From contig JAJEKV010000074.1 in the NCBI GenBank assembly GCA_021234155.1, forward strand, positions 894,154 to 958,153: 64,000 nucleotides of DNA, read 5' to 3'. Under the pieces are notes generated by a model. The model was not told the DNA's origin, searched no databases, and saw only the letters and a program-made list of their open reading frames with translations. Source of the stretch: Isoetes taiwanensis. Lineage: Eukaryota; Streptophyta; Lycopodiopsida; Isoetales; Isoetaceae. Positions 4,869-64,000 of the stretch are shown piece after piece; position 1 is the first letter of the stretch; the number at the start of each line of letters is the position of its first letter. The position numbers were made by a program, and so were the translations under genes.

Positions 4869-7800
4869 CTACTCCTGGGAACACCAGAAAGCTTTGAAAT
4901 AGCTTGTACCTGAGTCGAGGAATCGAGAGAGGCCGCAGTCGCTTGAATCCCCGAAAGATCCACAACCACCGCCTAAATCAGCCACACACCAACCAAGCCA
5001 CGACAGATGCAAGGCTTTTTCGCCGCAAGAGCTGCCAAGCACCGGGATACACATGAAGCAAGAATGGCGGCTAGTCAATCTCACTTGAAACAGAGCCCTA
5101 ACCCAATCCCAGGCAGCCTGCAAGTGAGGGCATAAAACCAGACAATGCTCCACAGTCTCACGATGAAGGCCACAACAAGGGCAGAGAGGGCTCACACCCG
5201 GCCTAAACCGACTCACAAGGGCATTCACCCTGATACAGCGGTGCACCACCTGCCACAGAAGCACCCTAACCTTCGGTGGGGGAAGTGAGCTCCATGTCCA
5301 CGTCCAAACCGAACGCCATCGAGAACCCGGAAGCTGCAGAGACCACTTGCATGAAGGGGCAAAGGTGTCATGAATAGCCAATTGCACGGTAAGAAGACCG
5401 CACAAAGCAAGAAGACACAACATCCGGATGAACCTTCCAAACCTGCACCACCACATCATCCTGAGGGACTATAGGTATGTGTAGCGAATACTCCCCGCCA
5501 TGTGCTCCCAGATAGCCTGCCACGCCTCAAAAAGCGAGCTCGAAGAACTCCCACGGGCTAGGCCGACCACCCCAATACCACTCCTCCAAGGTGAGCACAG
5601 CAGAAGCCTCCAACGGCATCGTCCAGCATGCACAATGGCAGCCAAGGGCAAGTGCGCAGGGGGTAAAGGAACCCACAAGAAAGGAGAAGAGTGGTGATAA
5701 ACTGAGGCATAATCTAGCTGGAAGAGCACACGCACATGATCCCAAGCCCGCAACACTCCTGTGAGAAAAGGGGATGCATGTGGGAAAGGCCGGAGACCAT
5801 ACAACAGTGCCCAGGGCAACTCCACATGCACAGACGGCTTCCCAAATGCCACACAATGGCGAAGAGACTGCAACAACAGCGCCGCACCAGGAGAAGATGC
5901 TCCATCCTGCAGAATGCTCCAAACAAACTTGGAGACCAACACCTTACTATGCAGCGCCAAATCCAGAATGGCCAAGCCCCCATCCTCCCGGGGGCGGAGA
6001 CACTTCCACCAAGCCACTTTAACAACCGCCCCTTCATCATCCCCGCCCCACACAAAATTTCGAACAATCTTATCCAAAGCCTGTATCTTACCCTCAGGAG
6101 CTAGCATCGCAGATGCTGTATACACATGAGTGCTACAAAGTACTGACTTGGCAATAGTGATCCTACCTGCCATGGACAACTTGCTACCCTTCCACCAATT
6201 GAGGTGTTTCTGCAACCCCTGCAAAATCTCATCCCACACCCTCCCCATGGAAACATCCCTCCAAAGGGAATACCCAACAGCTTAGTACACACATTACCTA
6301 GAAGCACCTTCCAAGGGAATGGAGCCAAACAAGGGGGAGGCGGAGTCAGCTGGGCCCATAATGCGGAGCACTTACCCCAATTCGTGAGAATGCCCGAGGC
6401 CAAAGAGAAAGTATCCAACAAACCCTTCACATTCTCAAATTCCTCTCTTACGCCACCAAGAAGAGGAAAGTGTCATCTCCAAACCGGTTAATAATCTGGC
6501 GGCTATCATCCCCGCATCCGAAGCCCATCCACCACTCCCTCCTCCACCGCAGCCAAAACAATCGGGACAAAGCCTCCGCCCACAATCGTAAACAAAAACG
6601 GTGCCAAAGGGCACCCCGACGCACCCTCGCCTAAGGAGAAAAAGGCGGGGGTTCACCCCGCACACACCACCGTAGCCCGTGGCCGACCTATGCGTTTTCA
6701 TGATCGTCTCTATAAAGCGTGGACCACAGCCCAAACGCTAACATCATGGCGATAAGAACTCCCAACGGACACTATCGTAAGCTTTGGCAAAGTCAAGCTT
6801 AAGATAGGCAATGCCTTGCCCTGTTCTTTTTCGGCCCAATAAAGGCCCCTCATAAGGCTGCGGCAACATTAGTCAAAATATTCCTCTCTGGGGACAAACC
6901 CGGATCGCACCTTACTAATGGAAGAAGTCAACACCGGCTTCAACTTCTCCGCCGGGCTTTTCGCCCAATAATCTTATACACAGAGGGACAACAAGGAGAT
7001 AGGCCTCCAATCATTAATAGTAGAAGGTCAAACCTTAGGAATCAAGGAAATGCATGCGGTATTCAAGATCCTATCCATTTGAGAAGACCGCAGCAACTCA
7101 AGGTACACCTGGTACACCGACTCACCAGCCCACTCCCAATAAGTCCGAAAGAACTCCACCGGGGATGCCATCCGGGCCAGGACATTTATCCTTGGCCATG
7201 CACATATATGTCACGCCTAAATCCTCTCCGGAGAGCTCTGCTCCAAAGCTCTCACTGGTTGGTGAGGTAATAGATAGATTAACAGACCCCCAAAACAAGC
7301 TCCTGCATCTCCTGCTCATAGGGAAGAGTCTTGTGTCTTGAAAAAACACGAGAAATGGGCATGCACATACCTCACCGCAAATCGTTGTGGGATCCTCCAA
7401 AGTCGGCCATCGAGGCAAAGCAAGGGACGCCATAGATCTTTATATCGCCCCGCCCTAGGCGCTCACGAAGAACAAAGACGAACTTGTGTCCCCCTCCTTC
7501 AACCAGGTAAGGGCTGCCTTCACACGTGCCTCCCGCACTTTAACCTGCTCCAGAGCAACAATACGCTGCAACACTGCATTCTCCCTAATGCCATCAGAAG
7601 GCTGCGCCCGAATCCTCTCCAACTCCTGATAGAGACCATGCAACTCCTGCCGCTCCTGCTGCACACGCTGCCTACCAAAGACCTTGGCAAAACGCTTCAC
7701 CCTGGCCAAGGCAGTCACCATACCAGACATACCCTTCAGAGATGAAAAGGTATCAAGCCACAACTCCTGGCACTGGGCCGAGAAATCCGCATCAGCCAGA

Positions 7801-9018: not shown

Positions 9019-10334
9019 TCACTGCACCACGCGAAGTCTTGTGTCACGTTGCCTGTGAACAGAGGAATCCCGGGCCCTTGCATAAGCACCCGCAACCCCT
9101 ACCACATCACAACCACCAGCATGATCATCAACATGGTCAGATGGTAGCACAATAGATGGAAACATCCGCCGGATCTCAGAGCCATTCAAAAGCTTCAATC
9201 GGAAGAGAAAATGCCAGGGACCACTATGCACTGGAAGAGAAGTGGGCACAGGCTGCAAAGCAGGCAGAGCAACACAGATCTTGGGGACCTGCACAATAGA
9301 ATGAGCCAAATATACACCCAGGCCATTAGCCATAGAAACCAAGAAAGCAGGCACCATCAAATCAGGAGGAAGATCCTGAATCTGGAACCAACACGGGATT
9401 TTAACCGCTGTCAATGAACTGGTGGACATTGCCGGAGTATAATACTGATACAATACATAAGATTCACCCAAAGTATCCACCCCTCGACTAACCAATTGCC
9501 TCACGGAAGACTCAGCCTCAAACATGATTATGAAGAAATTATTTGGTAGGAATTTCAGAGACTGATACTTGGGCAAACCAATCCGCCTCAGATGTCCGGC
9601 AAGCCAAGAGCTAAACCTCCTCGTGTCCAATATGTAACCCGTGAAGTAGCCCAATGCCGTAAATGAAACTAGATTCTCAATGGTCTGAACATGTCTGGTA
9701 TGATCAATATCTATCCATGGAGTCTCTGCAAGAGTGCTGCGCAGTCAACAGCAGTGATGATCCTCCACAAATTTCGTGAGCCTCTTGAACACGGGCGGCC
9801 CTACACTCGAGCCTTGGCGCTTGATCCAATCTGAAACCACGACCGAGTGATGCGAAAGCAACAGTGTCATTGCTCGCCAAAGCCCAAGACAGAGTTAGGG
9901 CTGCCGCCTGCATCCCTGAGAGGTATCCAAAGGCAACCCAGAGGCACATATCGGCTACATGCACCCTAGAAGAGGGCGATCACCCGACAGTGATCCCATC
10001 CCAAGCACGGGGAAGAGGGCATCACACATCCGGGCCAAAGGGGCATGCTTGATGGGATCAAGACCGAGTCTCCAAAACACAATCATCGGGGTCTCGAATT
10101 ATATTGAGAGGAAGAGCAATCCACATACCTCTCAACCGAAGGGGATTCCAAGAGCTCCCTCATCTCTGCCACCAATTGCATGCCACTTCCTACAGCCCCT
10201 GCCTCTTCATGCATGCCGAGACCCCCGCCCTTCCCCTTTACTGGAGGATTCTTCCTCCTCGCCATCTCCCTTGGCTTCAGCCCCAAGCCATGAGGCTCAA
10301 TCGATCCCCCATCAGCCTGTCTGGCAGGAGCCAT
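9019..10334 (-). pseudogene. LINE ORF1 (gag-like, DUF4283), broken
   Basis: ORF1 probably starts at the ATG at 10,334, upstream of a basic, Gly-rich N-terminus that includes PVKGKGGG. The clearest domain is at 9,654-9,250: a DUF4283-type fold with aromatic and hydrophobic spacing as in plant LINE and gag proteins, including WFQIQDLPPDL and the segment ending in NGLGVYL. A region near 9,960-9,700 belongs to the same protein in another frame, so frameshifts are present. ORF1 products of this type bind the element RNA. A zinc knuckle was not clearly visible. Confidence 0.65.
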
Positions 10335-11483: not shown

Positions 11484-12536
11484 AAAAAGTTTGTTACGTC
11501 TATGGCTCTCAAAGTTTGTTAAAAATAACGAATAAAATAATATAAGCCCTGAAATCAATATAAGCTTCTTTATTTCCGTTTTCATTTTTAGCTACATCTT
11601 TTAAAAATTGCTTCTTCTTCTTCTTCTATATTTATATAAACTCTCAATGGTTCGACACGCACAAAAAACCCTATTTTTGAATAAAACTTTTTCCCCTCCC
11701 AAAAAAAGAAAACTTGTAAAAATCATTTATCAATGTAATGGCAAGCAAGAGCCATCTCCAAAAACTTAAAAAACAAAAGAGCTATCTCACCTTTAGCTCT
11801 GAATGTGGGATTGTGCTCTTGCTATGATGTTAATCTCATTGATATTAAATCGTCCAATTATAAAGATGCATCTTTCTTGGAAAAAGTAAAATTTCATTAG
11901 AAAATAGATTCTGTGTATCCTAAAGCTTTCAAAATTTTCTACAAATATAACCTAGCAAGAAAAGACTTGATTAGAGTGAGAAATTTAGGCAACAACTTTA
12001 AGAAAATGGCTTGGGGAATATGGCCTCCATTTTTTGCCAAGCTTCGATGGGTATTTGGATGAGTGGCACAAGGACTTCTGGGCATTGAAAACCTCAATTA
12101 CAGAACTAGATACCCTCAAATCCTAATTCTGTTGTGCTTGGCCATGGAAGAAGCACAACACTAACGCACACTAATATTAATGAAACGCATGTACGCTAGA
12201 AACCACCCCAAACCAAACACCATTGTATCACGCAACATGCACCTTACAACATTCATATGATCATTTAAGGTTGTGATATTTACACACATACCATGTGCAT
12301 ATATTGATCTTCCACACTGGATCAAAGCTCATTTAGAAAAATCAATGGTAATTTTACAAAGTTTTTTGTGGAGTCTAGATTTTTATGCATAGACCAATCC
12401 ATCGAAATCAGGAAACAGGATCAAATGAAAATGATTTAAGATTGCAGGGAATCTACATCAAGTAACAGCTTTCGTGCATCAGGGAATAGGTGAGGAATTT
12501 TTTTTCCCGAATCATGTCAGGAAGCCGTAGTTAGAT
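10540..12536. other. intergenic, with tetranucleotide array
   Basis: AT-rich spacer between the LINE and the PPR gene. It holds the (CTAT)n array listed separately, a TTC-rich run near 11,610 and nothing else I can support. The last few hundred bases form the 5' region of the PPR gene; no convincing TATA box was fixed. Confidence 0.5.
11341..11482 (+). repeat. (CTAT)n microsatellite on a retroposon-like tail
   Basis: About 17 CTAT units run from 11,413 to 11,482. Directly before them is GATGTAAAAATA, the same kind of junction that precedes other simple repeats in this window (near 32,540, 33,855, 38,615 and 62,400). Upstream, near 11,350, is a weak B-box-like TGTTCAAGTCT followed by CTGCCATAT, both shared with the SINE at 58.4 kb. 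The array is therefore probably the tail of a truncated retroposon. Confidence 0.6.
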
Positions 12537-14834
12537 ATGATATTCTCACGAACTGAAAATAGTGTAGCAAGGGCTTTGACTACATTGAACAAACTCTGCA
12601 AGGAAGGGCAATTAGAGGAAGGGTTAGAAATTATAGAACAGCACCAGCTTCCCATATCAAGAGATATCGCATATCATCTTTTGCTAGAGTGCACACGGAA
12701 GAAATGTCTGCATTGTGGAATACGAGTACATGCCCTAATGGTTGTCAATGGGCTAGATCCAACTGCCGTTCTGGGGGACCATCTAATTCGGTTGTACGCC
12801 TCTTGTGGATGCTTGCCTGCAGCTGCATATACATTCAACAAGGTCCTGCAACCTGGGATGCATACCTGGAGTTCAATAATTTCTGCCCATGCTAATCAAG
12901 GTCAAGGTAAGCCTGCACTTGAGCTCTATGGCAGAATGCAAATCTTGAATTTAGAAAATGATGGATATGTTTTTCTTGCTGCACTTAAAGCATGCACAAG
13001 TAATGCTGCACTAATACATGGACGGCATGTCCATCAACAGATCATAGAAAATGGCATGCACTTGGATAGTTTGTTAGGGAATGTCATTGTGGATATGTAT
13101 GCTAAGTGTGGCTGTTTAGAGGAGTCACACAAGACCTTTGACAGTTTGCCAAATCGAGACGCAGTTTCTTGGGGTGCAGTAATTGCAGGATTTACCCAAC
13201 AGGGAGAAGGTTTAGAAGCATTAGATTGTTTCCAAAAGATGCAAGACGAAGGTATCATGCCTGATAATGTCACATTATCCAGCGTACTGAAAGCCTGTGG
13301 TACTGTATGTGCCATACAATCGGGTAGGCTGCTTCATGAGCTCATTTTAAATCAGGAAGTCCAATGGGATGTTGTTGGGCAAAATACCCTTATTGATATG
13401 TACGCTAAGTGTGGAAGTCTAGAAGAGTCATGCAGAGCTTTTGCCCTCTTGTCAAATAGAGATGTGATATCCTGGAATGCATTAATGTCAGGCTATATAA
13501 ACCATGACAAAGGCCCCCTTGCTCTAGATTATTATACACAGATGCGTGAAAATAATGTAAAACCAAATAAAGTCACATTTTTGACCATCCTAGGAGCATG
13601 TAGTATTTCATCGTCATTAGAGCATGGCAGGCTCATTCACAGCCTGCTCTTAGAGTATAAACTTCAGGGTGATGTTGTTATAGGAAGTAGCCTTATTGAT
13701 ATGTATGCAAAGTGTAATAGCTTAGACGAATCATGCAAAGTATTTGGCACTTTACAAAATTGTAATGTGGTTTCTTGGAATGCATTAATTGGAGGATATG
13801 TTCAGCATGATAAAGCTCTCATTGCACTGAATTATTTTGGAATGATGGAAACCAGTAGGGTGAAACCAGATAAAGTCACATTCTCCGTTATCTTGAAAGC
13901 ATGCGGTACTTTAGGGGCAATAGAACATGGCAGGTTTATTGGTAGCCAGATAGAAGTTCATGGGCTGCAGCAGGAAATTCTGGTGGGTAATTCCCTTATT
14001 GACATGTATGCTAAATGCGATAGAATGGAAGAATCATGCAAAGTATTTGACAAATTACTGAATAGAAATTTGGTCTCTTGGAATGTGTTGATTGCAGGAC
14101 TTACCCAGCAAGCTAAAGGCATGATTGCGTTATACTATTTTGAGAGGATGGAAGAAGAAAACATAAAACCAGATGATATTACATTTTCCTGCATTTTAAG
14201 AGCATGTGGCAATGTAGGAGCCCTAAAGAAGGGCCGTCTCATTCATGATCAGATTATGGAGCGTGGGCTCGACTCAGATATTATCATTGGAAGTACCCTT
14301 ATTGAAATGTATGCCAGGTGTGGCAGCTTGAAGGAATCATGCCTGGTGTTTGAAAATTTGACACGTCAGGATTTGCTATCCTGGAGTGCATTGCTAACAG
14401 CATATGCCTTGCATGGTGAAGGTATTCTTGCCATAAACTACTTTGGGAAGATGCAACCAGCAGGCATAATCCCAGATAAGATCACCTTTCTTTCTGTACT
14501 CACTGCATGCAGCCATGCTGGTCTAGTAGATAAAGGGCATTGGTATTTTGAGCATATGAGAGACTATCTTGTTGCACCAGATATAGATCACTGCATGTGT
14601 TTAGTTGACCTTTTGGGCCGTGCTGGGTGTTTAAATGAAGCGGAAGACCTACTTAAAACTTTTAGGAAACCCAGCATTTTGGGATGGAAGTCTCTGCTTC
14701 GTGCCTGCAAAATGCATAGCAAAATGGAGCTAGGGAGACGATGTTTTGATGAAATTATCTGTCTTGATACACAGGCTGCACCTGTTTATGTCCTGATGTC
14801 CAATATTTATGCTGAGGCCCAATTACTGAATTAA
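12537..14834 (+). CDS. PLS-class pentatricopeptide repeat protein
   Basis: An intact, intronless 765-residue ORF. PPR proteins bind single-stranded RNA in mitochondria or plastids and act in editing, splicing or stability. Six PLS triplets repeat at an exact 101-residue step, marked by YASCG or YAKC/YARC at residues 87, 188, 289, 390, 491 and about 592. The C-terminus enters the E1 motif (GWKSLLRACKMHSKMELGRR) and stops just after VYVLMSNIYAEA, so E2 and DYW deaminase domains are absent. An in-frame TAG lies two codons before the ATG, which fixes the start unless there is an upstream exon. No classic transit peptide stands out, though the N-terminus is Ser/Arg/Ala-containing and low in acidic residues for the first 20. 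The target RNA cannot be read from the sequence. A protein of this type would need a separate deaminase partner for editing. Confidence 0.93.
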   Translation: MIFSRTENSVARALTTLNKLCKEGQLEEGLEIIEQHQLPISRDIAYHLLLECTRKKCLHCGIRVHALMVVNGLDPTAVLGDHLIRLYASCGCLPAAAYTFNKVLQPGMHTWSSIISAHANQGQGKPALELYGRMQILNLENDGYVFLAALKACTSNAALIHGRHVHQQIIENGMHLDSLLGNVIVDMYAKCGCLEESHKTFDSLPNRDAVSWGAVIAGFTQQGEGLEALDCFQKMQDEGIMPDNVTLSSVLKACGTVCAIQSGRLLHELILNQEVQWDVVGQNTLIDMYAKCGSLEESCRAFALLSNRDVISWNALMSGYINHDKGPLALDYYTQMRENNVKPNKVTFLTILGACSISSSLEHGRLIHSLLLEYKLQGDVVIGSSLIDMYAKCNSLDESCKVFGTLQNCNVVSWNALIGGYVQHDKALIALNYFGMMETSRVKPDKVTFSVILKACGTLGAIEHGRFIGSQIEVHGLQQEILVGNSLIDMYAKCDRMEESCKVFDKLLNRNLVSWNVLIAGLTQQAKGMIALYYFERMEEENIKPDDITFSCILRACGNVGALKKGRLIHDQIMERGLDSDIIIGSTLIEMYARCGSLKESCLVFENLTRQDLLSWSALLTAYALHGEGILAINYFGKMQPAGIIPDKITFLSVLTACSHAGLVDKGHWYFEHMRDYLVAPDIDHCMCLVDLLGRAGCLNEAEDLLKTFRKPSILGWKSLLRACKMHSKMELGRRCFDEIICLDTQAAPVYVLMSNIYAEAQLLN

Positions 14835-33905: not shown

Positions 33906-34435
33906 CCAACAAGGAGATGGTCGATATTGGTAGTCAATATACGACGTTCAGGTTGATAACGGGCATGTGATAACGGGTATGCAGGTCGGAGCTTTTCTAT
34001 GGCGGCAGGGGGCGGGCTTCGCCGGCGGACTTCTTCCTCCTCTTCACGTTTCTTCGCAACATCGCTGTTTTGGACCAAATTTTTCAAAGCGGAGTTCCGT
34101 TTTCTTCCGCGTTCTGAAGACTTCCGTTTGCCCCTCGCCTATATGTATGTAGATCTTCCTAGCCTTGCTCACAAGTGCAGATTTGTGACGTTCCTACCTT
34201 TACCCCTTTCCCAAAAGTCTTACATACCATCAGACTCTTTGTCTCTGCACCTTTTGTCAGATGAACTTCTGTTGTAGTAGCTTAGATTTGCAATTAATTT
34301 GCATTCATCTTGCAGTCACATTTCTCCCCTGGGCCGTTTACATTTTGGGTTTTTGAAAGAATCTTCGAATTCTTAGCCGTAGCCCGGTTCTATAAGTAAA
34401 ATATCTCTGTTGTGAGTAAAAAACTTCCTCAACTG

Positions 34436-35678
34436 ATGACGACTCAGGGTAGTCCCAAGAAATCAAGCTCGCCAAGGCAACTGCTGGTTGTGAGCTTGCT
34501 TTGCAGAAAGTCTGATGGCTCTGTTTTGTATATGGAAGCGGGCAAAGACCTTGTCGATATGCTGCTGAATTTTTTAACTCTACCAATTGGGGCTGCAATG
34601 AAACTAATTGCTGGGAATAGCAGTGTGGAAGATATGGGGGGCATTGCAAATATATACAGCAGTGTTGAAGGGATGAACGATTCCATCATGTATGTGAACA
34701 AGGATAGTTTGTTAAGTCCCCCTGTGGCTGAAGGTTTGGGGGAAGCAGATATGCTTAAGCCAGAAGTCTCAGGTCAAGAGTCAGCCAAGCATATTTTCTA
34801 CAAGTGCTCGAATCATGGATGCTTGCGCATAGTGCTTGATGTTCCTGGCCAGATCTGTCCTGTTTGCAAATTTGCCATGAGTCACAGGCTTGAGGTTGTG
34901 AATCCTTCTAGAGATTCTTCAATTTCTTCTAGAGATTCCTCTAGAGATTCCTCTAGAGAATCCTCCAGGGATTCCTCTAGAGCTTCTATTCCTAGGGCTT
35001 CTTCCATCCCGCAGTTCAAGCGCGAAAAAGAAGGTTATGTGAAGAAGAATAGAACCTATGTCATCACCAATGATCTCCAAATTATGCCATGTACTACCAT
35101 CACTAGTATTATGCTCTTGAACAAGTTGAAGGTGGATTCTCTTGCTGATCTAGAAAGCGTCCAGACCATTGTTGGACGTGATCAGGTCGGTGCTTTCCTT
35201 AGTTTTAAAGTTTTATTCCTAGTCCATTTCTGCCTGCATCATAAGTTGTCAGTAAGCTAATTCTTTGAATGAGATTTCAGTAGTTCTAGATTTCAAGCAG
35301 CACGAGATTTTATCACAGCACTAAAGAACCCATTGTCGATATCTTTTTTTAGTTGCATAAGCAGCATATATCAATTGAGGCAGCGAATCTCTGGTCAAGG
35401 CATAACTATCATTTTGTTTCGGCCGTCTGAAATTAAAATCATCCAGCAATTCTTCTGAATTTTTGGTTAACTGTTTGTTCAAGTAAAGGTCCATTGCTAG
35501 ATTTTTTTTGGGATCAAGTGAAAAGAACTTAACCTTCTTCCACGAGTTTAATGTTTGTCTTTCTTGTGTATTTCAGATCATTGACCTCCTGAAGGCTTCC
35601 TTTGGGTCTAAAACCGCGCTAGATGATGTGTTCAATTGTGTCAAGAAGTCCGAGCTTGATATGAAACCAGAAATTTGA
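34436..35678 (+). CDS. DUF674 family protein, two exons
   Basis: Exon 1 runs 34,436-35,185 and ends CAG|GT. Exon 2 runs 35,577-35,678 after TTTCAG. The junction is in phase and gives 283 residues. I chose the first ATG at 34,436; the open frame extends upstream only through a GTG. This is the plant DUF674 fold, of unknown function: residues 14-95 contain SVLYMEAGKDLVDMLLNFLT and GGIANIYSSVEGMND, residues 124-144 contain four cysteines (C124, C129, C141, C144) in a zinc-ribbon-like array, and residues 200-283 contain YVITNDLQI, then the SIMLLNKLKVDSLADLE block that runs into exon 2. Between these lies an unusual Ser/Arg/Asp repeat (residues 158-182). Location and partners are unknown. Confidence 0.9.
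34907..34981 (+). repeat. in-frame SRDSS coding minisatellite
   Basis: Tandem TCTAGAGATTCC-type 12-15 bp units inside exon 1 of the DUF674 gene encode SRDSS/SRESS repeats in the linker between the cysteine cluster and the C-terminal domain. All units keep the frame. Confidence 0.85.
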
Positions 35679-48329: not shown

Positions 48330-49413
48330 TCAAGTGAAACACTCATCAAGATTTGTAAAGAAAGGTTGATCACTGTATTCTGTTTCATGTGTCTCGCATG
48401 AGATTGGTTGTGGCAGTACCCATTTTTCATTATGGCCCAACTTGTTTGATATCCAACAATTATCTATATTCTGCAAATGGTCCAAACCTTCAGACTCAGT
48501 GTAATCTGCCCACTTCGATGACTGTTGAACAACCGTAGTATGCCCAACTGATGGTTTAGTTTCAACCTTGGCTGCAAGATTATTTTTATAGGAATTTGGG
48601 ACTGTCTCTTTAGAATCCTTCAGAAAATATCGGTCTATAGAATTTTGATGCAATTTATGTCCACTCTGCAGGTTGCTGACAACTGCACCTTTCCTTACAT
48701 GCTCGGTCTGTTTGACATTTCTTGAGTGAAATGTTTTTGAGCTGCTTTGGCTATCCTTGCGCAATCCTGCATCTGCCACACTGTTGGCCTCCTCAATTTT
48801 ACGTTTGCGCCTTTGAACTTCTGGGATTGAAGTAACATACTTAACATCATCATCACATACCTCCAACATTGAAAACGATGAGCTTGCATTTTCCTACATA
48901 GTCCAAAACATAAGATTGTTAATGCCATTATGTTGTCTATCCAGTTCTACAGATAACCAGTTAAACTAACAAACATTAATCAATTGTACCTGATCTTCGC
49001 AGTATTCAGCCCATTTGCTGTTTAATGTCCGAGGATATACACACGGTGATGCCTTATCTTCATCTGTTACTGGATAATGATTCTCAACTTCGTCAAACAC
49101 ATTAACCAAAGCTTCCCTTTCTGCGGCACCATGGCTGAGATTCAGATCTTGAACTACATTCCTCACGTCCTTGGCATTAAAGGACCTGGCCACAACCTGT
49201 CTGACGGACTGCTTCTCATTGCAAATGGCGCAGACCCACTTGTTACTGGATTTTTTTTCCTGTTTAACCTAAGAATCGGCAGCATTGTAATGCCAAGCAG
49301 AAACTTGAATAAGCAGATCAGACTAAAGACCGTTGTGATTCTGATCAGAACCGCAATGTATTTACCTGAAACATGCAGCATTTGTGGCATTGAAGCGCAA
49401 GGAAGGCCGCCAT
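48330..49413 (-). CDS. MRNIP: MRNIP-like DNA repair protein
   Basis: Three in-phase exons on the minus strand: 49,413-49,366, 49,268-48,990 and 48,893-48,330, each with GT-AG borders, giving 296 residues. It is recognised as a homologue of animal MRNIP, which binds the MRE11-RAD50-NBS1 complex, promotes ATM signalling and protects forks. Residues 9-32 form a split zinc ribbon (C9/C12, C29/C32) within LQCHKCCMFQ and WVCAICNEKQ, followed by VVQDLNLSHG as in the family. SKWAEY (100-105) and SSKWADY (234-240) are paired family motifs, and the protein ends with an acidic-aromatic tail. RRKRK (137-141) is a likely nuclear signal. QNSIDRYF (192-199) fits the PCNA-binding PIP consensus; this is my inference. 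A Mutator-like element ends 65 bp upstream of the ATG. Confidence 0.88.
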
Positions 49414-49466
49414 GTGCCGCTGTAGGGGATCGAATTTGAATTTAGTGCCATTTCCTTACACGGTGG

Positions 49467-49478
49467 AAATTAATTTTA
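49467..49478 (+). repeat. target-site duplication, left
   Basis: AAATTAATTTTA, repeated exactly at 51,608-51,619 on the other side of the Mutator-like element. Because the sequence continues to match for GGAA beyond it, the exact length (9-12 bp or more) is ambiguous. Confidence 0.65.
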
Positions 49479-49719
49479 GGAAACGTACCAAAATAACCTT
49501 AATTGTTCATTCATAATTCGTTTATTGCTATCTTTATCGGGTTTATTCCAGGTTTTATTCAGAGCCATTGATCTGTGGGATATCCCTGGTATTGTGCCAG
49601 ATCAATGGCCATTAAGATTTTCACCCAAAAATAAAAAACCACTTCCTATGGTGTCGATCGAACACATGGTTGAAGCACAAGAAAGAAGCAAAATAAAGAA
49701 GCCAAAACAAAAAAAAAAA

Positions 49720-49905
49720 AAAACCAATAGTCAGAATGAAGACTCGCTCAAGCGACCACACTTGGGACCACTGCATCCTCTCCCTCCACAGATCAATCCT
49801 CTACCACTGCCAAAATTAGGACAAGCAGGGTTGGAGGATTCGAACCTCCAGGCCAAAGCAAAGGCCTCACCAGAACCCTTCCCTCTCTAAACCATGCTTA
49901 ACAAA
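49720..49905 (-). other. tRNA-like / SINE-like segment
   Basis: The minus strand holds a perfect B box with T-arm (GGAGGTTCGAATCCTCC, centred on 49,841) and an A-box-like TGGTTTAGAGAGG about 50 bp before it. An AGGGTT/AACCCT pair closes a shortened, tRNA-like fold without a D arm. A T-run follows at 49,722-49,709 on this strand. It is not a functional tRNA; a SINE head or tRNA relic is likely. Confidence 0.4.
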
Positions 49906-49973
49906 ACATTGCGGAAAGAGCCATTGTTAAACCTGCTAACCGCAACAAACAAAGGTAATGAAATTAGATATAC

Positions 49974-50325
49974 CTTTGGTCTTCACAAGCTTGTTTTCCA
50001 GCTCAGCCTTTGCTCGTATCTGCCTCCGCCTTAAAATTCCATGATATTGCTTTGCATTAACGTAAACAGTTCCTCCTCCATCATCTCGAGAGGGCAAGGG
50101 CATACTGCTCACGGTGCATACCGGCAAGAATGGGTGCATCTTGTATCAAAGAGTCACAAAGATGCGATTTCGGGCAAATATTACATTTGAAAAGCCAATA
50201 AAGAAAAAACAAAATTATCTAACCATTGCTTGAGGCCCATATGCTCGCCACAATACCTCCAAAATCTTGCTTTCTGCATATGGGTATGCTGCCCAACACG
50301 GAATTCAAGGTCGGGTCCATATATC
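49974..50325 (-). pseudogene. NF-YA: NF-YA exon fragments
   Basis: Exon B (50,139-49,974, minus) encodes [20 protein letters not shown] and continues with [20 protein letters not shown], the A1 helix of NF-YA that binds the NF-YB/NF-YC dimer. It ends at a usable donor (AAAG|GTATAT). Exon A (about 50,324-50,224) is a frameshifted version of the preceding NF-YA region (AYPYAES, then AYGPQAM), ending before GT. The next NF-YA block, the CCAAT-binding A2 helix beginning with the KPYLHESRH signature, is not found downstream before the MRNIP-like gene. NF-YA is the DNA-contact subunit of the CCAAT factor; this piece lacks that activity. The position inside Mutator-type ends suggests transposon capture. 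Confidence 0.75.
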
Positions 50326-51152
50326 TACGAAATATTTATTACCACCGGTAGAAGGTAGAAACTAATTTCAATAGGTCATCTCGGTAAATGCCGCACATAG
50401 TAGAAAAAGAGCTAATCGGTCGTTTCTTAACCGGTTAGACTCGAATAAAGATGTAAACTACTCGGTTCGAGGCAATGCCCTTCAAGAACTTTGAGTTTGT
50501 CGACGCAAATAATGTCTCCTTCAGAACTACAAACCCTTCGCCATAATTGTGTGGAATGCCGGAATTCCTGGATCTGCGAATGAAAGCGGTGGCGGGCATA
50601 TATCCACTCGCTAATCCGGCAGTCAAGCCTAACCTGTTGCATGCACAGAGCTCCCGCTGGCCGCCCAGACCCAAAAACGAGGGCTCCAAATAGAAACCAC
50701 CGTCACTTCTTATCCACGCCCATGAAATTCGCTTCTTCCCTTTTTCCAACCATGCCAAGGAAAACCAAGAAAGACCATGGAAAAAGGCAGTTGCCAAGCA
50801 CCCAAAATAGCAATAACCATCCAAGCTCCTCTCACATGGCAAATTATACCGTTTTTCATACAATACTATACGAAAATCATAGTCCAAACCACTGCCTGAA
50901 AACCCTCCCCCAACCCAAAACGAAATTAGCACACTATATTGTTCACTTAATTCCCAAAAAGCCCTTGTATTTTTTAAATTCCCAAAATGCCCTTAATTCT
51001 TAAGTATTTTCCCAAATTCTCTTTGTATTATAAAAATCACTAAAAAATATGTTTTCACAATAGATGCTCATTCTTTACGCAGAAAAATGTTTTTTTACAA
51101 ATCACAAGAATTTGAAACCAAATCATGCTACTTGTTGAGCTCATTTTGCTAA

Positions 51153-51356
51153 TCATATGTTGGAGTTATTTATCCACTAGATATTGAACTTCTTGAAAAC
51201 AATGAAATGCTACCTTCTAAAACATGTCGTTTACCTGGCAGGCGTAAAAGGAAATCAGATAGGACAGAAGACAGGGATAGAGAAAAGCGTGTATACAAGT
51301 GCACACGTTGCGTTGATGGTGGCCATAATGAACGCAGTTGCAGAAATCCTATTTGA
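51153..51356 (+). pseudogene. MULE transposase C-terminal remnant
   Basis: One frame of 67 codons carries the hallmark end of plant Mutator transposases: LPSKTCRLPGRRKRKS, a basic linker, and the zinc knuckle CTRCVDGGHNERSC (C-x2-C-x4-H-x4-C), then NPI and a stop. It sits about 70 bp from the right inverted arm, as expected for the 3' end of a MuDR-like gene. The catalytic DDE part is absent. Confidence 0.85.
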
Positions 51357-51607
51357 TATTTCCATTGCATATTTTGTCTTAATGTGATATTCCAAAATCT
51401 ATTTTCCAGATTGTTGTGATCTGTAAGAAACACTTCCCTGTGTAAAGAATGATCATCTATCGTAAAAACGTGATTTTTGGTAATTTATAAAATACAAGGG
51501 CTATTTGAGAAAATACTTAAGAATTAAGGGCATTTTGGGAATTTAAAAAATACAAAGGGCTTTTTGGGAATTAAGTGAACAATTAAGGTTATTTTGGTAA
51601 ATTTCCC

Positions 51608-51619
51608 AAATTAATTTTA
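51608..51619 (+). repeat. target-site duplication, right
   Basis: AAATTAATTTTA, partner of 49,467-49,478. Confidence 0.65.
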
Positions 51620-52250
51620 GGAAGCGGGTTCCTCTATTAACCTTAGGCGACTATGTGTAAAGTACTTTAAACGTGTTACTCTTGGAAGACTCCAAACAAC
51701 AACAAAACATCATCTCAAGGCCTAGAAGTGAAGTGGCTTTCTGAGCGTCCAAAACACAAGGTGCTGCACACGGAGGGTTGCCCTCCATGGCTGGAGGGTG
51801 AAGTGACTTAAATCATATTTGAAAGTCAAATTCCGACAATCAACCAAATTGCTATTTGAAAACAATAAAGTACTTGATACCGTGACTTTATGAGGATTGG
51901 CCTGAAGAGATCTTTGGTGCTCGGCATGGAACAAGGATGGCAGAAGCATAAGGACAAGTCTAATAGAGGAGAGAATAGAAATACATGTTTTGTCAGTATA
52001 GAAATGAGAGAACTCCTTGAAGACCTCTGATCGATTTTTTGTCACAGAGGACTTCAAACATGTGAGGAGCAGGTTTTGTAGAGAATGTAAGATCTGGAGC
52101 AACACGCATACCAAAAATGCCCGTCTCCATAGCTAATGAAGCTCTCTCTCCCTCTCCCTCGCCCCAGGAATGATAGCGATATATGAGTATTGATGCAGGG
52201 GGTCCGATGGAATTTGTATATTTTAAGTTTGGACCAGTAAATGTAAAGAG
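51620..52250. other. no gene recognised
   Basis: Spacer. The minus-strand open frame at 52,114-51,722 has no recognisable domain. Confidence 0.45.
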
Positions 52251-62517: not shown

Positions 62518-64000
62518 TTTTTTTTTTTTTTTTGGGGAGGGTCCCGGCAAGAAACACTAATAAACTATATAGAATTGTACAATGATGTATTTTGGATGTA
62601 ATATGGTACAATTCAGTGTCACGTCAGTGAACATAGCTGAGTGCATGTATCCATGATCTCTTGAAGATATGATCCGATATGATCCCAGCAAGCGCACAGA
62701 GGCCGTGTCTAGCAGCACATGTAATGGATGATTAGGCAGGACTAACTGAACATAACATGCCCAGATATGGTCATAACGTGCCTTGTGGCCCCAGTGCCAC
62801 AGCATAAGCAAGGTTGGGGAGACGGCCATCGCTCATACCGACCACTTTCTAAAAGTAGATGATGTGTCAGTCCAATGTGGCCCGTTGAAGGGGCAAGAAA
62901 CCCCCCTTTTGAGGGTAAGACTATGTTATATTAGTTATTATAGTAAATATAATACGTGTATCCCATTTACGGGCCAACCTTTGCATATTTGAGCACTGAT
63001 CATCCACAGCTAACCAATGGCACTTGAAAAACATATAGAATCCTTGGATCTTACCAATCTCGTCTAGAGCTTTATTATAATTGTGCCCAAATTTTCGATG
63101 ATGGGCTAGAGCCATAAGTGCCACCTCCATGTTGCAAATATTCTTCATCTTGTTCAGAGAAAATTGTTGTCCACCCATAGCAATTCCACATCTGTGTTTC
63201 CATATTGCCCACATCCCTATGTTAACAAGGGATGCTGAGATTATATCTCCATCAGTAGCCGCCACTATCCCTGGCCATTGCAGAACATTAGTGCCAATGA
63301 GTGGACACACCCACTCCCAGATGACCACTATCTTGGGGCAAAAGAACAAGGGAGTGAGGGTTTCTGTGGTATTGCAACCTAGTGGGCAACTGCCAATAAG
63401 AAGAATCCCCTTTCTGTGGAGCCTCTCCATAGTGCTCAATCCCCCTTGTAATGCTATCCATCTAAAAAACTGCAACCTTCTTGAGCATATTGAATCCCAT
63501 GACTTAACCAAAAGTTGTTTTGCCTTTAGCCCTGTCAGCAGCTTTGATAGGAGAACCAACACGGAGACGACGGTAGATAGTGCTGACAACATATTTCTCC
63601 TTTTCGTTACAAGCCCATCTGTCACTGAAGCCAACTTTTCCTAAGAGGTCAGCCAATGTTCCACGTAGTTCATTATAGATCCTCCTATCACCCTCCACTG
63701 CACCATGCACCTTTTCTTTAAAACGAGACCAGGATAGCCACCGCATACCATCCCAGAGATGTCCAACTTTGGTAATTCTTGATAGCCTCCATTTAATGAA
63801 AATACGGGGGTGTGAGAGAGCAAGGGGGAGGCTATTTCTCATCCATATCTGTGTATTCCTAAAAATACTCAGCTTGCCAGCCTCCGAAGGAGCTTCCATC
63901 AGCGCAAATAGACTTTGAATTTCTAACCAAGCAATTTTATAGCGAAAAGAAAAGGGAACCCACTTAGCTTACTTTTCAATGTACAACACTGAAGCCAATG
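62518..64000 (-). mobile_element. LINE ORF2 C-terminal part, runs off the window
   Basis: A third LINE type on the minus strand, cut by the window edge. A frame at 63,899-63,504 (RFKEKVHGAVEGDRRIYNEL and further) is followed, after a frameshift near 63,520, by a longer frame to 62,921. The latter holds the zf-RVT region: RLQFFRWIALQGGLSTMERL, then CPLGCNTTETLTPLFFC and MWAIWKHRCGIAMGG. The 3' end is ACCCTCCCC plus poly(A) (the T-run at 62,518-62,534). It differs clearly from the 4.6 kb family and has the longest surviving open frame of the LINE remnants, 237 codons. Confidence 0.8.

Follow-up and report, generated by a model that had tools for sequence, protein, structure and literature searches.

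An NF-YA fragment in a mobile element probably nested within a MULE derivative of the lycophyte Isoetes taiwanensis

The stretch of DNA analysed here, referred to as the window, comprises 64,000 nucleotides (C1083:894154-958153) of the Isoetes taiwanensis genome, which was analysed as 1,658,258,908 bases in 1,110 contigs. An earlier sequence-only reading of the window had entertained a fern as host; the host is a lycophyte. The window includes a 767-aa open frame with pentatricopeptide repeats (12531-14834, +), two pieces of zf-RVT, a domain associated with reverse transcriptase (4869-5468 and 62921-63640, both -), a DUF4283 piece (9019-9744, -) and a DUF674 frame (34400-35260, +). No tRNA was found in the window by ARAGORN, and a search of Rfam at gathering scores returned nothing there.

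The features that had been picked out from the letters between 49479 and 51607 are all present, and none looks like chance. The outer inverted ends are identical at 29 of 31 bases and are flanked by the repeat AAATTAATTTTA, which occurs at 49467 and again at 51608. The inner inverted pair extends over 143 nt at 83% in an ungapped search, and over 180 bp at 86% in a gapped genome search (query positions 1539-1718 against 2005-2184). Between the outer ends lie the NF-YA coding pieces, which match PF02045 with an E-value of 7.1e-11. In addition, an 8-bp duplication, ATTGTTCA, splits the interval into two elements. The best reading, with a probability of about 0.88, is one of two nested transposable elements, in which element B, derived from a Mutator-like element (MULE), is interrupted by element A, which carries the NF-YA sequence. 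On this reading, the features are as follows.

49467-49478 (no strand): left copy of the outer target-site repeat AAATTAATTTTA; 11 bp if 49478 is the first, mutated base of the B tip
49479-49509 (+): outer part of the left terminal inverted repeat of B, with the same start in uninterrupted B copies elsewhere
49502-49509 (no strand): left copy of the 8-bp target duplication ATTGTTCA attributed to the insertion of A; also part of the B repeat
49510-50937 (+): inner element A, 1,428 bp, carrier of NF-YA; its two parts, left and right, are found as a pair at other loci in different flanking sequence
49517-49882 (+): conserved left part of A, of which the first ~190 bp are the most repeated
49881-49947 (+): short inner part of A, common to sister copies, up to the capture junction (query 482-548, 92-99%)
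49943-50468 (-): putatively captured NF-YA fragment, with two exons (placed by eye against C913) together with the intron that separates them and part of each outer intron
49943-49947 (no strand): 5-base overlap CAACA at the capture junction, a microhomology of A and NF-YA, read by eye
49978-50070 (-): part coding for the NF-YA A1 helix, Pfam positions 2-32 of 56, without A2
50480-50937 (+): conserved right part of A, with the end CGAAATTAGCACACTAT; this 24-mer occurs at 139 exact places
50938-50945 (no strand): right copy of the 8-bp target duplication ATTGTTCA, where B restarts
50946-51607 (+): rest of B, with the inner left inverted repeat, the centre and the right inverted repeat
51180-51353 (+): C-terminal zinc-knuckle remnant of a MuDR-type transposase
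51608-51619 (no strand): right copy of the outer target-site repeat AAATTAATTTTA

The left end of uninterrupted B copies reads about GGGAAATTTACCAAAATAACCTTAATTGTTCACTTAATTCCC. At the left end of B in the window, sequence of this type is broken after the ATTGTTCA at 49502-49509 and restarts with the second ATTGTTCA at 50938-50945. When the two flanks in the window are joined, with one base lost at the join, 100-106 columns of the first 110 bases are identical to the better-fitting end of each of 17 other B copies. As the joined flanks restore the uninterrupted repeat, A is placed as an insertion into the left inverted repeat of B. Taken by itself, the 8-bp duplication in the window gives p = 0.01 in a cross-paired test. 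The nesting is argued from B, which supplies the empty site. In a genome search with window 49400-51700, for which the best 40 of 2,330 candidates were scored and all counts are lower bounds, 50938-51607 recurs as one unit, and 49517-49947 and 50480-50940 recur together elsewhere without the NF-YA piece.

Element B, which in the window consists of 49479-49509 and 50946-51607, is an internally deleted derivative of a Mutator-like transposon. A genome-wide search for other copies of the ends, which had been proposed as a check on the sequence-only reading, yielded 17 further full-length copies of B. These remain from 19 loci after exclusion of L014 (right end not found) and L026 (misfit), and they carry both ends, measure 663-698 bp and have the tips GGGAAATTTACCAAAATAACC. 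Exact 9-bp target duplications are found at five of the 17 (L012, L015, L016, L021 and L029), and the flanks of L011, L013, L017, L023, L027 and L028 match by eye at 7 or 8 of 9 bases; the window copy itself is flanked by a duplication of 11-12 bp. Like MULEs (MuDR) and their non-autonomous deletion derivatives, this multicopy family has long terminal inverted repeats, target duplications of about 9 bp and a remnant of a MuDR-type transposase, and it is related to MuDR-type transposase genes with the same ends (L099 and L100).

The Mutator zinc knuckle noticed earlier is borne out, as the frame at 51153-51353 aligns with the C-terminal end of MuDR-type transposase frames from this genome. At least 150 scored matches were obtained among 618 candidates, some of them in open frames of 336-518 aa; the Pfam match of the window frame to zf-CCHC_2 is weak and below the cut-off (E 0.072). 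B was rejected as a carrier of coding capacity, this C-terminal knuckle being its sole coding remnant. At L099 (C1055:1131500-1137500), the B tips enclose 3,085 bp with the exact 9-bp TAATTTTTA on both sides, and a 518-aa frame contains DBD_Tnp_Mut and SWIM domains. No MULE catalytic domain was detected in this frame, so L099 may be defective itself. The 498-aa frame of L100 contains MULE and SWIM domains, and neither of the two frames alone holds all three. Both loci share their ends with B, along with a collinear 3' part at 76-82%. Given the sister copies and the presence of the same ends around the MuDR-type frames of L099 and L100, B is interpreted as an internally deleted MULE, with relatives in the same genome that provide DBD_Tnp_Mut, MULE and SWIM domains as in known MULEs. 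Nothing sets B apart from MULEs other than its left arm, which can be aligned over 151 bp (79%) with the right end of L099 in inverted form, as against 46 bp for the left end of L099 (79 bp in the sister copy L019). As the left arm follows the inverted right end further than the left end, both arms of B may derive from a right end.

Element A belongs to a family of its own, with a left end of about TTCRTT(T/A)ATTGC, in which sub-families occur, and the right end CGAAATTAGCACACTAT. The exact 24-bp right end is absent from the genome in its reversed form, used as a control. A query with the left 373 bp gave 822 candidates and a query with the right 299 bp gave 901, the best 40 being scored in each case; most of the scored left matches cover only the first ~190 bp. 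Among 28 other A loci (L040-L049, L051-L058 and L101-L110), the right part is present in all 28 and the left part in 27, the exception being L102. Judged by their flanks, L042 and L045 are duplicates of L041, L043 of L040, and L052 of L051. The centres vary from copy to copy, and the family is one of two long, unrelated, conserved ends around a variable centre. In L051 (486-510) and L052 (446-470), the 190-bp left part is immediately followed by the right-end sequence in inverted orientation (ATATAGTGTGCTAATTT), which makes an internal inverted repeat. By eye, a box-B-like stretch near 49820-49860 had suggested a tRNA or SINE head in A, which neither ARAGORN nor Rfam supports; a relaxed Rfam scan of L010, L041, L044 and L048 gave a sole match to mir-455 (E 0.12), far below the gathering score.

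The NF-YA piece is absent, on either strand, from all 28 other A loci, in a search that does detect NF-YA in L007 and L008. Ten stop-free frames from the centres of A copies were scanned against Pfam as possible cargo, and six of the ten gave no match. In L057 (348-1054, -), two frames match GH17 glucanase above the cut-off (E 4.5e-7 and 8.4e-7). Below the cut-off lie a weak GUB_WAK match in L058 (349-591, +; E 0.0025) and a weak Jas motif in L056 (495-824, +; E 0.006).

Flanking duplications of A were evaluated in a test anchored at the right end, with 27 copies set against 702 mismatched left-right pairs, for which the null maximum was 9. Scores above the whole null were obtained for L047 (19), L051 (15), C913b (12) and C1050b (22). 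The window copy has a score of 8 (p 0.01), and the remaining 22 copies score 4-7, with a best p of 0.04 (L101). The duplications measure 23 bp in L047, 15 bp in L051, 12 bp in C913b, 26 bp in C1050b and 8 bp in the window; all five start 0-3 bases past CACACTA, and 7-26 filler bases stand to the left of the conserved left end. A further repeat, of 20 bp, in L106 is not flush. In total, six of the 27 copies have a flanking duplication, irregular in length (8-26 bp), and no convincing duplication was found in the 21 others tested. A has no terminal inverted repeats. A simple MULE is thus excluded as the class of A, a canonical Helitron does not fit, and a retroposon fits partly.

Helitrons capture host gene pieces, and canonical Helitrons have a 5' TC and a 3' hairpin with CTRR and insert between A and T; they are not known to make a target-site duplication. 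It is conceivable, as a tentative assignment, that A is a non-autonomous Helitron-like element that acquired NF-YA. Like gene-capturing Helitrons, A combines the lack of inverted repeats with conserved ends around variable centres that hold more than one kind of host fragment, and the host genome is rich in Helitron replicase domains (PF14214; 1,813 candidates, with 150 of 150 scored above the cut-off and some frames of more than 1,000 aa). Unlike them, however, A runs from TTCRTT to CACACTAT rather than from TC to the canonical CTRR, forms no stable hairpin close to its left or right end in the window copy (z-scores of DNA folding 0.05, 0.23, -0.77 and -0.26), and has irregular target duplications in six of the 27 copies.

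The near-flush position of the five duplications after CACACTA, with filler on the left, would suit a retroposon moved by LINE-type machinery, as variable-length duplications that are flush at one end (the right, or 3', end) and have filler at the other (the left, or 5', end) are found in LINE-mobilised non-LTR retroposons; the zf-RVT pieces within the window itself point the same way. Such an origin of A is possible though doubtful, given that most copies have no such duplication, that the repeat of L106 is not flush and that the right end has no tail, whether poly-A or simple repeat, CACACTAT being followed by varied sequence. The NF-YA piece also retains its introns, and retro-elements usually capture exons only, as stated in passages of PMC4717578, though its antisense placement could hide the introns from splicing.

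An unlikely third alternative is that A represents a lineage that is neither Pack-MULE nor canonical Helitron, with two unrelated conserved ends, neither inverted repeats nor a hairpin, irregular 8-26 bp duplications and one-sided filler, which takes in host gene pieces in a lycophyte (the intron-bearing NF-YA, GH17 glucanase and, possibly, a Jas motif and part of a wall-associated kinase). The literature searched contained no account of gene capture of this kind in Isoetes.

The NF-YA match extends over 49943-50468 on the minus strand, antisense to the left-to-right order of A, and is about 90.5% identical to sequences on C913 and C908, introns included. The piece meets A through the CAACA overlap at one junction and through an 11-base filler (50469-50479) at the other. 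According to passages of PMC4717578, a survey of TRIM elements that includes Selaginella, Pack-MULEs carry exons together with introns and retro-elements carry exons only; by this contrast, the introns of the NF-YA piece make a DNA-type capture a good fit. An intact NF-YA protein has both A1 and A2, and the window copy has A1 without A2. The genome NF-YA profile search, in which all 24 candidates were scored, gave six HMM matches, with A1 at four loci and A2 at two (C913 and C1044). The separate parental gene anticipated by the sequence-only reading is thus represented by the C913 locus, with A1 and A2 exons. That reading had also named a continuous NF-YA transcript joining these exons to a downstream A2 exon as evidence against capture, and the profile search found no A2 exon downstream of the window copy.

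The C908 copy, which lies at about 2562-4004 of L008 (C908:5078000-5085000), is 98-99% alike to C913 over about 1.4 kb, with two extra stretches of about 187 and 115 bp in C913. In L008 no A2 exon and no match to the ends of A or to B were detected, and the 7 kb read at C908 contain no N bases. As the only two A2 matches of the assembly lie on C913 and C1044, the C908 copy seems truncated too. In a three-way alignment, the window agrees with C913 and not with C908 at three bases, and C908 is accordingly not favoured as donor; the window copy is without the ~115-bp stretch present in C913. From these comparisons, the C908 and window copies appear to have arisen separately from a single NF-YA lineage.

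As the window piece is antisense, has no A2 and is broken as assembled, it is most likely inert. The suggestion that an A1-only peptide might sequester NF-YB and NF-YC is speculation and finds no support here, the reading frame being broken as assembled; with one copy, antisense and without an A2 exon, nothing was found that favours an active product.

The broken frame must itself be viewed with care. Between C908 and the window NF-YA, 31 of 38 difference events lie within 3 bases of CAG/CTG, which cover 42% of the columns (binomial p 1.1e-6), and identity is 305/312 away from these sites and 181/224 near them. Of the 26 CAG/CTG sites in the NF-YA piece, 21 are changed, as against 4 of 64 control trinucleotides; in the control comparison of C908 with C913, 1 of 25 CAG/CTG sites is changed. 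The same signature appears within the A family, with 29 and 28 of the 38 sites of L048 changed in L054 and L053 (controls 20/144 and 18/143). In the reverse direction it is weaker, at 7/16 and 8/18 for L054 and L053 against L048, and at 2/7 for sites of the window changed in C908. Milder pairs are L041 to L045 (14/45), L041 to L042 (10/45) and L040 to L043 (10/33). The pattern is not always one-sided, as the duplicate pair L051 and L052 is altered both ways (22/33 and 24/35), with raised controls (39/191 and 35/187).

Plant transposons are methylated at CHG. The changes in the NF-YA piece are probably due to nanopore miscalling at methylated CHG, and on account of this pattern its frameshifts are not to be trusted. 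The alternative, that the changes are real mutations, for example methylation-driven ones, and that the NF-YA piece is a truly decayed pseudogene, is improbable. It draws on the B copies, where 50 of 77 CAG/CTG sites altered relative to L011 are C>T or G>A, the spectrum expected for real methylation-driven decay, and on the rest of A in the window, where the odd pattern is scarcely seen (compared with L041, 3 of 10 sites in the right part are changed; for the left part the figure is 4 of 15). Among the 21 altered NF-YA sites, however, just one is C>T or G>A, the others being 8 indels, 7 middle-base changes and 5 of other kinds, and the signature is shared by L053 and L054 relative to L048. The assembly, moreover, was made from nanopore R9.4.1 reads called by Guppy 3.1 with Illumina polishing, as given in the relevant passages of PMC8566536. 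The weak pattern in the rest of A sits ill with a simple account of miscalling at methylated sites, which would need to explain it; polishing by cross-mapped Illumina reads might account for the difference between NF-YA and the rest of A. Methylation differences are described as likely to reduce nanopore accuracy in passages of PMC9749173 that do not mention CHG, and no account of CHG-related nanopore errors was found in the literature searched.

The single Pack-MULE first proposed, in which MULE ends would have taken up NF-YA and carried it along, is very improbable and was rejected. In its favour are the matching inverted ends, the repeat outside them and the knuckle remnant, but ATTGTTCA is duplicated within the left repeat, A sequence is found apart from B with ends of its own, neither NF-YA (searched on both strands) nor the end parts of A occur in any of the 17 other full-length B loci, and the empty-site alignment contradicts it. 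What holds from that proposal is the MULE outer ends and the presence of an intron-bearing NF-YA fragment in a mobile element; what falls is the single capturing MULE, as NF-YA sits in an unrelated element within the left repeat of the MULE derivative. The locus resembles Pack-MULEs in having a host gene fragment that retains introns and is associated with a transposon, alongside a separate intact-looking gene, and differs from them in that the fragment lies in a second element inserted into a MULE end, not between MULE ends. No report of NF-YA within a Pack-MULE was found in the literature searched.

For the two nested elements, the following history is the most likely. B, a MULE of about 690 bp with an internal deletion, inserted first, producing the AT-rich duplication of 11-12 bp, as its ends, this duplication and the sister copies show. 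Later, the different element A entered the left inverted repeat of B and duplicated ATTGTTCA, as flank joining shows. The centre of this one A copy also received a 526-bp genomic piece of NF-YA, probably through capture at the DNA level or from an unspliced template.

The locus carries a caution for annotation, in that a gene piece between matching ends does not make a Pack-MULE when an insertion lies in one of those ends. The CAG/CTG pattern points to a hazard in this nanopore assembly, where frameshifts, pseudogene calls and divergence-based ages may be artefacts in some copies. The locus also points to a family of mobile elements that carry gene fragments in a lycophyte.
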